A DNA stretch of 64,000 nt from Gemmatimonadota bacterium (GTDB lineage: Bacteria; Gemmatimonadota; Gemmatimonadetes; Gemmatimonadales; Gemmatimonadaceae). The position numbers and the translations under genes were made by a program. Under the pieces are notes generated by a model. That model was not told the origin of the DNA. It made no database searches and saw only the letters and a list, made by a program, of their open reading frames with translations. Positions 28,493 through 51,796 of the stretch are shown piece by piece; positions within the stretch are counted from its first letter, which is position 1, and the number at the start of each line of letters is the position of its first letter. The stretch covers positions 1 through 64,000 of the forward strand of contig JAQBQB010000004.1 of the NCBI GenBank assembly GCA_028287235.1, given 5' to 3'.

Positions 28493-29040
28493 CGGGTGTG
28501 GTGGGTTCGCGCCCCGCGCCCAACGCCCAACGCACCACGCGAGTGGGCATCGGCTACGACTCACACCGCTTCGCGCCGCCGGGTCCTCTCATCCTCGGCG
28601 GCGTGCCCATCCCGAGCGACGTCCACCTCGAGGGCCACTCCGACGGCGACGCGGTCGCGCACGCGCTGACGGACGCGATCCTTGGCGCCGCGGCAGCCGG
28701 TGACATCGGCGAGATGTTCTCCGATCGCGATCCGGCGAACAAGGGAAAAGATTCCATCGTGATGCTCGGCGCCGCGGTGGCACGCATTCAGAAACTCGGA
28801 TGGCGCGTGCAGCAGGTCGACGTAACGATCGTCGCCGAGCGGCCGCGGGTGTCGTCGCATCGCGAGCTGATGCGCGCGCGCCTGGCGCCGGCCATGGGCG
28901 TCGACACCGACGCAATCAGCGTGAAAGGCAAGACGAACGAGGGCATGGGGTGGATCGGCCGCGGCGAAGGCATCGCCTGCATCGCCGTGGCCACCATCGT
29001 CTCCGCCGATGACTCTGCCGATGTCGCCGCCGACCGGTGA
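28489..29040 (+). CDS. ispF: 2-C-methyl-D-erythritol 2,4-cyclodiphosphate synthase
   Basis: MEP-pathway enzyme making the cyclic diphosphate precursor of isoprenoids. Family motifs: RVGIGYDSHRF, LGGVPIP, HSDGDAVAHALTDAILGAAA (zinc ligands Asp/His), GDIGEMFSD, and KGKTNEGMGWIG. The start is uncertain. GTG 28489 overlaps the mqnC stop and gives 183 aa with an extra N-terminal segment encoded by the heptamer repeat. GTG 28543 gives MGIGYDSHRF at the conserved position and would leave the repeat between the genes. Both lack a clear Shine-Dalgarno. Confidence 0.93.
   Translation: MTGVVGSRPAPNAQRTTRVGIGYDSHRFAPPGPLILGGVPIPSDVHLEGHSDGDAVAHALTDAILGAAAAGDIGEMFSDRDPANKGKDSIVMLGAAVARIQKLGWRVQQVDVTIVAERPRVSSHRELMRARLAPAMGVDTDAISVKGKTNEGMGWIGRGEGIACIAVATIVSADDSADVAADR
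28510..28537 (+). repeat. Heptanucleotide tandem repeat, copy A
   Basis: Four 7-bp units, CGCCCCG, CGCCCAA, CGCCCAA, CGCACCA, lie between the mqnC stop and the conserved start of ispF. Same unit and orientation as the arrays at 29957, 35084 and 41690. Confidence 0.75.
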
Positions 29041-29956
29041 GCGCGCAGTGGCGGACGAAGGCGCGGTGCTCCGGTTTCAGCTCGACCGGTTCGGCGATTT
29101 CCTGACGCTCGAGCAGGGCACGTCGCCGCTCACGCTGGAGGCGTACCGGCGCGACGTGGAGCGCCTCGTGGACTACGCGCGCGCCAAGGGCGCGGCCGCG
29201 CCGGGCGATGTCACGAGCCGCATCCTTCGCGAGTTCGTGTATCACCTCAAGGACGTCGGTCTCGCGCCGGCATCGATTCGTCGCAATATCTCGGCGGTCC
29301 GGACCTATTTCAAGTTTCTGCTGTCCGACGGCGTCGTGGCGCGCGACCCGAGCGAGCGACTCGAGACGCCGAAGCGGTGGCGAACGCTGCCCGACGTGCT
29401 CACCATCGCCGAGATCGAGGCGCTACTCGCCTCGCCGACGTTGGAGCAACCGCTCGCGTTCCGCGACCGCGCCATGCTCGAGCTGGCGTACGGCGCCGGT
29501 CTTCGCGTGTCCGAATGGATCACGCTCGGCGTGAAGGACGTGCTGTTCGAGGAGAAGCTCGTGCGCGTGTTCGGCAAGGGGAGCAAGGAGCGCCTGGTGC
29601 CTATCGGGCGCTCGGCAATCGGCGCGGTCGCGACGTACATGCGCGAGCTCAGGCCGCGGTTGGAGAAGGGCGCGGGGAAGGGGATCCTGTTTCTCAACGC
29701 GCGCGGCGAGCCGCTGTCGCGCATGGGCGCGTGGAAGATTCTCGCGCGCCACGTCGAGACCGCGAAGATCACGAAGCACGTCTCGCCCCACACGCTGCGC
29801 CACTCCTTCGCCACGCATTTGCTCGAGCACGGCGCCGACCTGCGCGCCGTGCAGGAAATGCTCGGCCACGTCGACATCTCGACGACCCAGATCTACACGC
29901 ACGTCGACCGTGAGTACCTTAGGAAGGTGCACAAGCAGTTCCACCCGCGCGGCTAA
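29009..29956 (+). CDS. xerD: Tyrosine recombinase of the XerC/XerD type
   Basis: Site-specific recombinase, up to 315 aa. N-terminal SAM-like DNA-binding domain (FGDFLTLEQGTSPLTLEAYRRDVERL), then a catalytic domain with R166 (GAGLRVSEW), H261 and R264 (HTLRHSFATHLLEHG), H287 (LGHVDISTT) and nucleophile Y296 (QIYTHVDREYL). These are the full Xer set for dimer resolution at dif, and a dif-like site is present at 50902. Whether it is XerC or XerD cannot be settled from sequence by eye. The ATG at 29009 overlaps ispF by 32 bp; GTG 29048 would avoid this and still keep the domain. Confidence 0.9.
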   Translation: MTLPMSPPTGERAVADEGAVLRFQLDRFGDFLTLEQGTSPLTLEAYRRDVERLVDYARAKGAAAPGDVTSRILREFVYHLKDVGLAPASIRRNISAVRTYFKFLLSDGVVARDPSERLETPKRWRTLPDVLTIAEIEALLASPTLEQPLAFRDRAMLELAYGAGLRVSEWITLGVKDVLFEEKLVRVFGKGSKERLVPIGRSAIGAVATYMRELRPRLEKGAGKGILFLNARGEPLSRMGAWKILARHVETAKITKHVSPHTLRHSFATHLLEHGADLRAVQEMLGHVDISTTQIYTHVDREYLRKVHKQFHPRG

Positions 29957-44798: not shown

Positions 44799-47301
44799 TG
44801 TGACCGCGACCGCCGCGCCCGAGCTCCCCGCACCGCGACATGCGACCGCCTGGGCATCGCTGGTCTACGCGGTGGCCACGATGCTGCTCGCCTATCCCGC
44901 ACTCACTGGCGCGTTTCTCGTCAGCCCGATCAGCGATCAATACAAGATCGGGTACGCCTTCCGCGAATTTGCCGCGGCGTCGCTGAAAGCGGGGCACGGT
45001 TTTCCGGAGTGGAACTCGTACCTGTTCGGTGGTCTGCCGTATGTCGCGGCGATGCACGGCGACATCTTCTATCCGACGTTCTTGTTGCGGATGATCATGC
45101 CGACCGACGTGGCGATGACGTGGGAGTTCGCCATTCATCTCTTCCTCGCCGGCCTGTTCACCTACGGTTTCCTGCGCGCGTGGGGCTTGGGCTTCATGAG
45201 CTCATTGATCGGCGGCCTCGCGTACATGCTGAGCGGGCAGATCGCGTCGCTCGCGTCGCCGGGGCACGATGGAAAGCTCTTCGTGAGCGCGCTGTTGCCC
45301 GCCGCCCTCTGGCTCCTGGTGCGCGGCGTGCGCGACGGCCGGCGGTGGGCGTGGGGCCTGCTCGCCATCGTGGTGGGTCTCGCGGTCCTCAGCCCGCATC
45401 CGCAGCTGCTGCAGTACATGCTGCTCGCCTGCGGATTCTTCGCGCTGTTCCTCGCGTTCGGTGATCTCGACAGCGCCGGCCGGCTCCCGCGCGACGTCGC
45501 GCTCAAGCGCCTGGCGTGTGCGCTTGGCGCGGTGATGCTCGGCGGCGCGATCGGCGCCATTCAGTACTGGCCCGTGTTGGAGTATGCGCCGTTCTCGCCG
45601 CGCGCGGGCGGACGCGGCTACGATTTCGCCACCAGTTTCTCGATGCCGATCGAGGAGCTGATCAACACGTACCTGCCGCAGTTCAGCGGAATTCTCGATC
45701 GCTACTGGGGCCGCAACCAGATTCACTTTCACAGCGAGTACATCGGCGCGGCGGTGCTCGTGCTCGCGGGCGCCGCGTTCGGCGCCGGAACGCGCCGGAG
45801 CTTCAGGCGCTTCTGGGTCATCACCGGCGTGGTCGCGCTCTTCTGGGCCCTCGGCGGTGACACACCGTTCTACCGTATCGTCTACGCGCTGCCGATCGGA
45901 ACGAAATTCTTCCGCGCACCGAGCACGATGTTCTTCGTCGTGTCGTTCGCGGTGGCGGTGTTGAGCGCGCTGGGCGTGGAGCGAATTCTCGCGGGGCGCG
46001 TCGGACGGCGCTACGTCATCGGCTGGGTGGGCGCCAGCCTCGCCTTCACCATTCTCATGTCCGTCGGCGCGGGCACGGTCATCATGCAGGCCGTGACGAG
46101 CGCGATGGCGGACATGTATCCGCCGGAGCAGCATGCCGCGGCCGTCGATGCGTTCATGCAGCGGGCCAGCGAGAATTCGAGCGCGCTCATTCTCGGCGCC
46201 TGGCGATCGTTCTTCGTCGTGGCCATCGCGGGGGCGCTCATCTGGGCGCTCGGGGAGGGAAGGGTCTCGCGCCGCGTGGCGGCGTGGTGTTTCGTCGCGC
46301 TCGTCGGCGTCGATTTGTGGAGCATCGAGCGGTTGTATTGGAGATTTTCGCCGCCCGCGGCGCAGCTGTACGCCTCCGATCCCGCCACCGATTACATGGC
46401 CAAGGCGCCAGATCCTGGCCGGGTGGTCGTGTTGGAGATTCGCCAGCTCGGCAATCTGGCGCCGCAGGATCCCACGCTCACGGGCTGCTCCGGAGGCACC
46501 GGCGGACCGTCGCTCATGGTGCACCGCGTTCGCAACGTGACCGGCTGCCACGGCAACGAGTTTGGCCGCTACCAGCAGCTGGGCGGCTACACCGACGCCA
46601 CGCAGTCGTATGATCCGGCGCGGTACCTCAGCCCCGCGGGAGCGCGACACGAAAACGTGCACTTCCTGCTCACGAACGCGGCCGACACGGTCATGAGCGT
46701 TATTCAAACGCAGTTGCATACGGGGCCGTTCACGCACGTCCTCGGTCCGGTAAAGACCGCGGCCGGTTCCATGGTGCACCTGTATCGCGTCTCGGGCGAC
46801 AATCCGTTGGCCTGGGTTGCGGCATCCATCGTATCCGGTGATTCCGCGCAAACCTTGGCGACCGTGTTGTCCCCCGACTTCGACCCGCACCGCGCCGCGA
46901 TCGTCGACGTCGGAAGCCCTGTTGCGACGGTTCCCATCCAGGCTGTCCCCGCGCCGGCGACGACGCGCGCGACCAGCTCGCACTACGAGCCCGGCGCCAT
47001 CGACATCAACTTGGATCAGCCCGCCTCCAGCGGGCAGGCGCTCGTGGTGTCGGAGAATTACTTTCCGGGTTGGCACGCCACGGCGGACGGCAAACCCGCG
47101 GTGGTGGCACGCATGAACTTCAACTTGATCGGCATCGCGCTCCCCGCGGGCGCTCGTTCGGTTCAACTACGCTTCGACGACGCGGCGTACGAGAAGGGGA
47201 AGGTGCTCACCCTGGTGGCGCTAGTGTTGGCGCTGGGGCTCTGGGCGTGGGGAGCGGTCGTCGAGCGCAGACGGCCGATCGCACTACCGTCCACGACGTG
47301 A
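44782..47301 (+). CDS. YfhO-like multi-span membrane protein (GT-C superfamily)
   Basis: 839 aa with about 12-13 helices and a C-terminal beta-rich extracytoplasmic domain. YfhO-type landmarks are ISDQYKIGYAFREFA, EWNSYLFGGLPYVAAMHGDIFYP, AYMLSGQIASLASPGHDGKLFVSALLPAALWLL and, near the end, VVSENYFPGWHATADGKPA. YfhO in Bacillus and Listeria puts sugars on teichoic acids using a lipid-linked donor. Here the linked GT2/DPM-like enzymes could supply that donor, which is an inference. The last helix is followed by a short basic tail. Confidence 0.85.
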   Translation: MARTSDVTATAAPELPAPRHATAWASLVYAVATMLLAYPALTGAFLVSPISDQYKIGYAFREFAAASLKAGHGFPEWNSYLFGGLPYVAAMHGDIFYPTFLLRMIMPTDVAMTWEFAIHLFLAGLFTYGFLRAWGLGFMSSLIGGLAYMLSGQIASLASPGHDGKLFVSALLPAALWLLVRGVRDGRRWAWGLLAIVVGLAVLSPHPQLLQYMLLACGFFALFLAFGDLDSAGRLPRDVALKRLACALGAVMLGGAIGAIQYWPVLEYAPFSPRAGGRGYDFATSFSMPIEELINTYLPQFSGILDRYWGRNQIHFHSEYIGAAVLVLAGAAFGAGTRRSFRRFWVITGVVALFWALGGDTPFYRIVYALPIGTKFFRAPSTMFFVVSFAVAVLSALGVERILAGRVGRRYVIGWVGASLAFTILMSVGAGTVIMQAVTSAMADMYPPEQHAAAVDAFMQRASENSSALILGAWRSFFVVAIAGALIWALGEGRVSRRVAAWCFVALVGVDLWSIERLYWRFSPPAAQLYASDPATDYMAKAPDPGRVVVLEIRQLGNLAPQDPTLTGCSGGTGGPSLMVHRVRNVTGCHGNEFGRYQQLGGYTDATQSYDPARYLSPAGARHENVHFLLTNAADTVMSVIQTQLHTGPFTHVLGPVKTAAGSMVHLYRVSGDNPLAWVAASIVSGDSAQTLATVLSPDFDPHRAAIVDVGSPVATVPIQAVPAPATTRATSSHYEPGAIDINLDQPASSGQALVVSENYFPGWHATADGKPAVVARMNFNLIGIALPAGARSVQLRFDDAAYEKGKVLTLVALVLALGLWAWGAVVERRRPIALPSTT

Positions 47302-49987: not shown

Positions 49988-50809
49988 ATGATTCCTGCCG
50001 GCCGGTCGTTTTACAAGATGAGCGGGTCGGGGAACGACTTCGTGGTCGTCGACGCCCGGCATGAGCCTCGGGGCGAGCTCGGGCAGACCGAGGTCATTCA
50101 ACGCATCTGCGCGCGCGGAACCGGAGTCGGAGCCGACGGAATCGTCTTCCTCGAGCCGTCCAGCGCCGCGGCGATCCGGCTGACCTACCTGAACGCCGAC
50201 GGCTCGCGGGCGGACCTCTGTGGCAACGCCACGTTATGCACCACCCGGCTGTCCGTCGAGCTCGGGGTAGGCGCTCCGGATGGGTTCGACATCGAGACAG
50301 ACTCCGGCATCGTGGCGGCCAGGATCAGGGCGGGCCAGCCAGAGATCGACCTCCAGCCAGTTCACGGCGTTCAGGAAGAGGCGCATGGAATCCACCGGGA
50401 GCTGGGCGAGCTGCGGATCGGGTTCGCGCTGGTCGGCGTTCCGCACCTGGTCATCCTGTGCGACGACGTCTCGACGATCGACGTCGTGGGCCGTGGCCGG
50501 CCGCTCCGGCACCATCCGTTGATGACCCATGGAGCCAACGTGAACTTCGTGTCGCCGAGCCTGGACGGGCGGTGGCGGATGCGGACGTACGAGCGGGGTG
50601 TGGAGGCCGAGACGCTCGCGTGCGGGAGCGGATCGGTGGCATCGGCGATTCTGCTGACGGCGTGGGGCGAGGCGAGCGGAACCGTCGAGCTGGAAACTAG
50701 CTCCGGCCGCGTCCTGTCGGTGCGACTCAATCGTGACGGGGATATGTGGATTCCCAGCTTGAGCGGCGAAGGACGGGTGGTATATCAAGCACAACTTTCA
50801 GAGGTCTGA
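49988..50809 (+). CDS. dapF: Diaminopimelate epimerase
   Basis: 273 aa cofactor-free racemase that makes meso-diaminopimelate for peptidoglycan and lysine. N-terminal FYKMSGSGNDFVVVD and TGVGADGIVFLEP are typical. The two active-site cysteines sit in DLCGNATLC (family consensus CGNG-RC) and in LACGSGSVASA (consensus ACGTG). The first motif departs from consensus at the position after Asn and at the residue before the second Cys, so substrate specificity should be treated with some caution. The preceding gap forms a small stem CCTCA/TGAGG that includes the ribosome binding site GAGGGGA. It is the last plus-strand gene before the dif-like site. Confidence 0.9.
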   Translation: MIPAGRSFYKMSGSGNDFVVVDARHEPRGELGQTEVIQRICARGTGVGADGIVFLEPSSAAAIRLTYLNADGSRADLCGNATLCTTRLSVELGVGAPDGFDIETDSGIVAARIRAGQPEIDLQPVHGVQEEAHGIHRELGELRIGFALVGVPHLVILCDDVSTIDVVGRGRPLRHHPLMTHGANVNFVSPSLDGRWRMRTYERGVEAETLACGSGSVASAILLTAWGEASGTVELETSSGRVLSVRLNRDGDMWIPSLSGEGRVVYQAQLSEV

Positions 50810-50901
50810 CCTAAATCGTTGGCAGGGAGTGCGTTAGGCGATTTGGTCGGAAATAGGGGCTCCGCAGGCAACTGAGTTGTCCACAGGATTTCCCCGGGTG
50901 T

Positions 50902-50929
50902 AGTTTACATAATACATCTTATACGAACT
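50902..50929 (-). other. dif: dif-like site (XerC/XerD recombination, chromosome terminus)
   Basis: On the minus strand the 28 bp read as an 11-bp arm AGTTCGTATAA, a 6-bp centre GATGTA and an 11-bp arm TTATGTAAACT. The right arm equals the XerD arm of the Bacillus subtilis dif as I remember it and matches E. coli (TTATGTTAAAT) at 9 of 11. The left arm matches the E. coli XerC arm (GGTGCGCATAA) at 8 of 11. It is an AT-rich island in GC-rich DNA, in the gap between convergent genes, exactly where gene orientation flips. A Xer recombinase gene lies at 29009. Confidence 0.85.
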
Positions 50930-50947: not shown

Positions 50948-50973
50948 AAGGCGCCAACCGAAGCTGGCGCCTT
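50948..50973. terminator. Hairpin terminator between convergent genes
   Basis: A perfect 9-bp stem (AAGGCGCCA, 8-nt loop, TGGCGCCTT) lies 19 bp after the dif-like site and 51 bp beyond the stop of the minus-strand TPR gene. On the minus strand it is followed by TCTG, on the plus strand by GATG, so the T-tract is poor. It could stop transcripts from both sides and keep them out of the dif site. Confidence 0.7.
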
Positions 50974-51024: not shown

Positions 51025-51693
51025 CTACTTGCTCGCCACCTTCGCCGTCAGCTCACCCAGCCGAACCCGCGCCTCGGCAGCCATCGTCGAATACTTGGGG
51101 TCGGTGGACATGTCCGTCCAGATCTGGCGAGCCTTGGCCGTGTCGCCGGCGGTCTGGTAGGCCCGCGCGGCCTTGGCGCGCTGGAAGGCTTTTTCGGTCT
51201 CGTAGCCGGTCGCGTCGGCGGCGCTCTCGTACTGCTTGGCGGCGTCCGTCAACTTGCCCATCTGGGCATACCCATCGCCCTCGAGGCTCCGGACGGTGGG
51301 CTCGACGCCGTTCGCGGCGCTCGTTCCCGAGACCTTCTGAAGGATCGAGATGCCGTCCTGGAACTTGCCGGCATCGTAGTCGATCTGCGCCAGAAGCATG
51401 GCGGCCTCGACACCGGCCGAGGTGCTGGCGTACTTGGCGAAGACCTTCTGCAGGTCGGTCTGGGCCAGCGGCAGGTTGCCCGCGGTCATCGACTGCTTGG
51501 CGGTCATCAGCGCCTTCTCGGCGTTGGCGGCCTGAAGCTGCTTGGACCGGCCGTAGAACCAGAACCCGGCGCCGGCCACGACGATCAACACCGCTCCGCC
51601 GGTCAGCATCCTGGCGTTGATCCGGGTCCAGTCGACGAACGTTTGGGCACGATCCGCCGCGGCGGACTCGGCATCGGGACGAATGCTTGTCAT
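51025..51693 (-). CDS. Membrane-anchored tetratricopeptide (YfgM-like) protein
   Basis: 222 aa from the ATG whose complement is at 51691-51693, preceded by AGAAGAG. Residues about 28-47 form one transmembrane helix (MLTGGAVLIVVAGAGFWFYG). The rest is helical TPR-like repeats (AEKALMTAKQSMTAGNLPLAQTDLQKVFAKY, EAAMLLAQIDYDAGKFQDGISILQ, EGDGYAQMGKLTDAAKQYESA, AYQTAGDTAKARQIWTDMS). The layout resembles YfgM, an ancillary SecYEG/periplasmic chaperone component, but similarity is mostly architectural. It lies 29 bp downstream of the tRNA gene on the same strand, so the two may be co-transcribed. A longer reading would run into the tRNA. Confidence 0.8.
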   Translation of the reverse strand: MTSIRPDAESAAADRAQTFVDWTRINARMLTGGAVLIVVAGAGFWFYGRSKQLQAANAEKALMTAKQSMTAGNLPLAQTDLQKVFAKYASTSAGVEAAMLLAQIDYDAGKFQDGISILQKVSGTSAANGVEPTVRSLEGDGYAQMGKLTDAAKQYESAADATGYETEKAFQRAKAARAYQTAGDTAKARQIWTDMSTDPKYSTMAAEARVRLGELTAKVASK

Positions 51694-51722
51694 GTCTCTT
51701 CTGTTGGTGAGCCAGTCGTGAG

Positions 51723-51796
51723 TACCCCTGGCGTGACTCGAACACGCGGCCAACGGTTTAGGAAACCGCTGCTCTATCCATCTGAGCTACAGGGGC
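51723..51796 (-). tRNA. tRNA-Arg (anticodon CCU)
   Basis: 74 nt fold cleanly. Acceptor GCCCCTG pairs with CAGGGGT (G-U at 1-72). The D stem is GCTC/GAGC. The anticodon stem GCGGT/ACCGT has loop TTCCTAA, giving anticodon CCU at 51760-51762. The T arm is GCGTG-TTCGAGT-CACGC. The discriminator is A and no CCA is encoded. It reads AGG codons and lies about 0.8 kb from the dif-like site. Confidence 0.95.

Follow-up and report, generated by a model that had tools for sequence, protein, structure and literature searches.

The window analysed here is a 64-kb stretch (64,000 nucleotides) of a Gemmatimonadaceae chromosome, lying on a 110-kb contig of a draft genome (G000) that comprises 5.73 Mb in 31 contigs with 66% G+C. 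Between the convergent genes dapF and a TPR_21 protein gene we find a 28-bp sequence built as a XerC-binding arm, a 6-bp centre and a XerD-binding arm (Table 1), in the place and with the architecture that a preliminary description had given for a dif site. The hairpin which that description had called an adjacent terminator is real (z -3.7), but scanning for terminators gave no hairpin-plus-T-run at its position. The Xer recombinase gene claimed for the window is xerD. Two short boxes beyond the XerD arm had been overlooked in the preliminary description, and a conserved element lies at this place in the relatives.

Table 1. Features in the vicinity of the predicted dif site; positions are those of the window.
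Feature	Position	Strand	Remarks
xerD, tyrosine recombinase gene	29009..29956	+	TIGR02225, 356.6 bits (cut-off 329.6); 21 kb from dif
dapF	49988..50809	+	TIGR00652, 180 bits; conserved neighbour on the XerD-arm side
Box 2, TGTGGACAA (TTGTCCACA on the + strand)	50877..50885	-	starts at +17 from the XerD arm
Degenerate box 1, GGGGAAAT	50888..50895	-	starts at +7, where relatives carry GTGGAnAA
Predicted dif site, 28 bp	50902..50929	-	AGTTCGTATAA GATGTA TTATGTAAACT; arm/centre/arm match to dif
Putative XerD-binding arm TTATGTAAACT	50902..50912	-	assigned by similarity; 11/11 to B. subtilis, 9/11 to E. coli
6-bp central region GATGTA	50913..50918	-	differs among relatives, arms constant
Putative XerC-binding arm AGTTCGTATAA	50919..50929	-	assigned by similarity; 8/11 to E. 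coli, 8/11 to B. subtilis
Hairpin, 9-bp perfect stem	50948..50973		TPR-gene side of dif; possible terminator
TPR_21 protein gene	51025..51753	-	PF09976; conserved neighbour on the XerC-arm side

The arms were compared with the dif reference sequences of E. coli and B. subtilis taken from Kono et al. (PMC3025954). Their agreement with known arms, put at 8 to 11 of 11 positions before, is confirmed for both species, and a scan of the 110-kb contig gives 17/22 arm matches to E. coli and 19/22 to B. subtilis at this site, with at most 14/22 at the best unrelated position. A general dif pattern matches the window here alone, with an expectation of 0.00 per shuffled window. The 28-mer occurs once in the whole genome even when up to three mismatches are allowed, and no better dif match exists elsewhere in it; several copies or a better match had been named beforehand as findings that would speak against dif. 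The AT-richness of the spacer in a genome of such high G+C content could suggest a chance match. This is refuted by the shuffling expectation and by the conservation of the 28-mer between genomes whose flanks are otherwise unalignable. The 28-mer is almost certainly dif, the site at which dimers of this chromosome are resolved. The dif site of one Gemmatimonadetes genome (1/1) was predicted as early as 2011 by Kono et al. (PMC3025954), and the site by itself is therefore ordinary. The text of that paper gives neither a context nor a flanking element for the Gemmatimonadetes dif.

When related genomes were searched for the same site between convergent genes, it was found in dozens of them. Exactly one strict core per genome is present in 30 of 98 relatives. 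Allowing two mismatches at most, 24 of 30 genomes examined further have exactly one core, and the core has diverged in most of the genomes that gave no match even then. In the phylum Gemmatimonadota, 156 of 200 genomes match dif at one mismatch. The predicted dif is thus kept across the phylum, usually once per genome. CGTATAA and TTATGTAAACT are invariant in a set of relatives that was itself retrieved with that core, and it is the 6-bp centre and, in the XerC arm, the outer four bases that vary. At nearly all dif sites examined in the order Gemmatimonadales, two genes converge on dif, dapF from the XerD side and the TPR gene from the XerC side. The distance from dapF to dif varies widely among relatives. 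Six drafts (G197, G199, G205, G059, G202 and G012) have two dif matches or a dif at a contig end. The contigs concerned carry dapF / GT2 or TPR flanks, except for the short contig G059:C171, which gave no match. In the three contig pairs that were compared, the end sequence is the only part in common, so these cases look like assembly breaks, the second match being a duplicated contig end in the pairs compared.

Similar 28-mers are also used by integrated mobile elements (IMEX phages or pdif modules), and a site of the form CGTATAAN6TTATGTAAACT is present in 39 viral contigs, so the 28-mer could in principle be the Xer site of such an element. This origin is highly improbable here. The site is single, with no second site and no element genes around it; it lies at the terminus, among housekeeping neighbours that are conserved throughout the order; and the contigs that end at dif in some drafts run on into the same chromosomal genes. 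The viral contigs carrying the strict core contain none of the flanking genes that were looked for. As a separate observation, one viral contig (L219, 6582-6994) has two dif-like cores of the above form about 390 bp apart.

The position of dif at the replication terminus, where the skew switches, is seen from complete relatives and from the switches of gene strand and of FtsK-orienting words. By crude gene calls over the whole contig, 38 genes on the plus strand and none on the minus strand lie left of dif, against 4 and 40 on its right, which bears out the flip of gene orientation described earlier. Counted from dnaA, complete relatives with the same locus have dif after about 42%, 45% and 48% of the chromosome. 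In one of them (G026, 4,636,964 bp) dnaA is located at 449 and dif at 1,930,289, and the GC skew, which had been proposed as a check, changes sign within the 10-kb bin holding dif (+0.069 in bin 1,920,001-1,930,000 and -0.012 in bin 1,930,001-1,940,000). In the stretches of G026 that were sampled, nearly every bin before dif has a positive skew and most bins after it have a negative one; G051 has the same pattern with more noise. A 40-kb island of G026 (C1:2130001-2170000) has a GC skew opposite to that of its own replichore and is perhaps inverted or acquired. The plain GC skew of the window's own contig is weak (-0.003 left and -0.021 right of dif) and does not switch sign, and no switch occurs at dif within the 64-kb window, where none had been claimed.

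The word GGGNAGGG, the FtsK-orienting word (KOPS) of E. coli, changes its polarity at dif. Its orientation counts on the window's contig are 9:1 on the left and 2:6 on the right (p 0.013, from a small count), with the nearest copies flanking dif at 46,257 and 58,531. The counts in G026 are 38:10 and 8:52 (p 3e-12). In a set of 56 words with the same composition, none is more polar than GGGNAGGG, so base skew alone is no explanation. The polarity flip and the skew switch in the complete relative support the terminus that had been read from the gene orientation. In those Gemmatimonadota drafts where a weak GC skew leaves the terminus hidden, dif could serve as its marker.

The genome of the window encodes XerC-like, XerD and FtsK-gamma genes. 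The second xer gene, on another contig (C23), matches the XerC model TIGR02224 best, with 319.6 bits and thus below the cut-off of 335; one FtsK-gamma domain is encoded (99.4 bits). KOPS directs FtsK, which joins two dif sites at the septum and activates XerD, and XerC finishes the exchange. We infer from the sequence a corresponding course at the predicted dif. XerC and XerD, the latter encoded 21 kb off and the former elsewhere in the genome, would bind the two arms. FtsK, guided by the GGGNAGGG words oriented towards dif on either side, would pair the dif copies at the closing septum and activate XerD, and the exchange would resolve the chromosome dimer into monomers. The linkage of xerD to dif is itself a constant feature: wherever the two share a contig (41 of 41 genomes), the distance is 16.8-25.9 kb and the orientation of xerD relative to dif is the same. 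According to Kono et al. (PMC3025954), the gene close to dif is usually xerC, with xerD close to the origin, so that the linkage in Gemmatimonadales departs from this trend.

In the flanks of all sites compared, the sequence beyond the XerD arm is unalignable between relatives except for the word TGTGGAnAA. Within 120 bp beyond this arm, GTGGAnAA has 87 copies (93 distinct loci), and 85 of the 87 start at +7, +8, +17 or +18, that is, at two places exactly 10 bp apart. The first 30 bp contain the word in 75 of 93 loci, with 0.1 expected after shuffling, where the loci are related and hence statistically non-independent. On the XerC side, none was found in 88 loci. The information content is 1.6-2.4 bits at most positions of Box 2, and mostly below 0.2 in the XerC flank. 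In the order, the two TGTGGAnAA words of the element thus begin at distances of 6-8 and 16-18 bp from the XerD arm, on its outer side, and Box 2 of our locus is the only TTNTCCACA word in the 64-kb window. A direct scan found the box arrangement in 178 of 395 genomes of the phylum, against 1 for a reversed-pattern control. A sister family (f5) has the box pair mirrored on the XerC side with a spacing of about 10 bp, e.g. TCCACACTTCTCCACAGCGACGTATAA in G303. Many genomes of the class outside the order gave no boxes on either side of dif, and loci of Myxococcota and Aminicenantes with the same core are without them.

The lock in phase to the XerD arm, the independence from the distance to dapF and the mirrored version in the sister family argue that the boxes belong to dif, and they are probably a functional part of it. 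Their place downstream of dapF, and in some loci an inverted copy that could make a hairpin with them (e.g. TGTGGAGAAC...GTTCTCCACA in L027 and L029), would also suit a terminator or processing signal at the dapF transcript's 3' end that had nothing to do with dif. We consider this improbable, since the distance between box and XerD arm is exact where that between dapF and dif varies widely, many loci have no inverted copy, and the pair of the sister family is on the XerC side. As a part of dif, the boxes are most likely a protein-binding accessory element. Being one helical turn apart, they would suit a protein that contacts the same helix face twice; it would do so beside XerD and help to assemble or regulate the synapse. 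In titles and abstracts of the open-access literature we found no paper on accessory sequences at a chromosomal dif, and the phased element may be new.

DnaA is perhaps the protein that binds. Every box fits TTNTCCACA, and dnaA in the same genomes is flanked by words of this class. Over the 5.73-Mb genome the word is scarce, its 21 copies comparing with 54 of its reversed form. DnaA sites usually occur in 10-bp tandem arrays, which also speaks for this assignment. DnaA could act beside dif as an architectural Xer helper, or the boxes could serve DnaA sensing or titration at the terminus. The third position argues against it: it is free at the dif boxes, where E. coli DnaA prefers A/T, and in three genomes of the genus the boxes flanking dnaA are TTTTCCACA while those at dif are TTCTCCACA or TTGTCCACA. 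Since the third base is unlike that of the dnaA-side boxes in the genus, we treat DnaA as a candidate and hold its identification with the boxes to be tentative. A search of titles and abstracts in the open-access literature likewise found no paper linking DnaA with dif. Somewhat more doubtful still is the wider proposal of a composite dif in Gemmatimonadota, in which DnaA, or an oligomeric protein that reads the same word, would sit on the phased boxes and take part in dimer resolution or gate it. Such a composite dif, if true, would link the initiator to the terminus.

Two other places in the genome concern DnaA-type proteins or box-like words. On contig C21 (L343:2624-4546), a predicted protein of at least 640 amino acids with two tandem DnaA-type AAA domains adjoins the gene of a TPR protein, and similar proteins are present in most relatives searched; it was considered as the box binder and dropped, with nothing in its support. 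On contig C28, at position 125154 (L339), an intergenic cluster GTGGATCCTGTGGACAACGAGTGTGGACA away from both dif and dnaA contains three box-like words in steps of about 10 bp.

The predicted dif resembles those of E. coli and B. subtilis in its 11-6-11 architecture, arm sequences, single copy and terminus position, in the encoded XerC, XerD and FtsK-gamma, and in the switch of KOPS polarity. It differs from them in that the dif-linked recombinase gene is xerD and not xerC. Over about 45 bp, neither flank of the E. coli dif contains TGTGGAnAA, whereas in Gemmatimonadales the phased two-box element adjoins the XerD arm. Compared with the DnaA box (TTATCCACA class), the dif boxes share the consensus and a word class that is also found beside dnaA, and they differ in the free third position and the location at the terminus. 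To our knowledge, a chromosomal dif is thought to require the 28-bp core and FtsK only, and accessory sequences are familiar from plasmid Xer sites. An element locked in phase beside dif throughout an order would clearly depart from this, and it raises the question which protein sits beside XerD at the terminus. In layout the site resembles the plasmid sites cer (ArgR/PepA) and psi (ArcA/PepA), where a Xer core also has a conserved accessory sequence on one side. The accessory sequences of cer and psi are plasmid-borne, about 150-200 bp long and on the XerC side; the element in Gemmatimonadales is about 20 bp long, chromosomal and on the XerD side.
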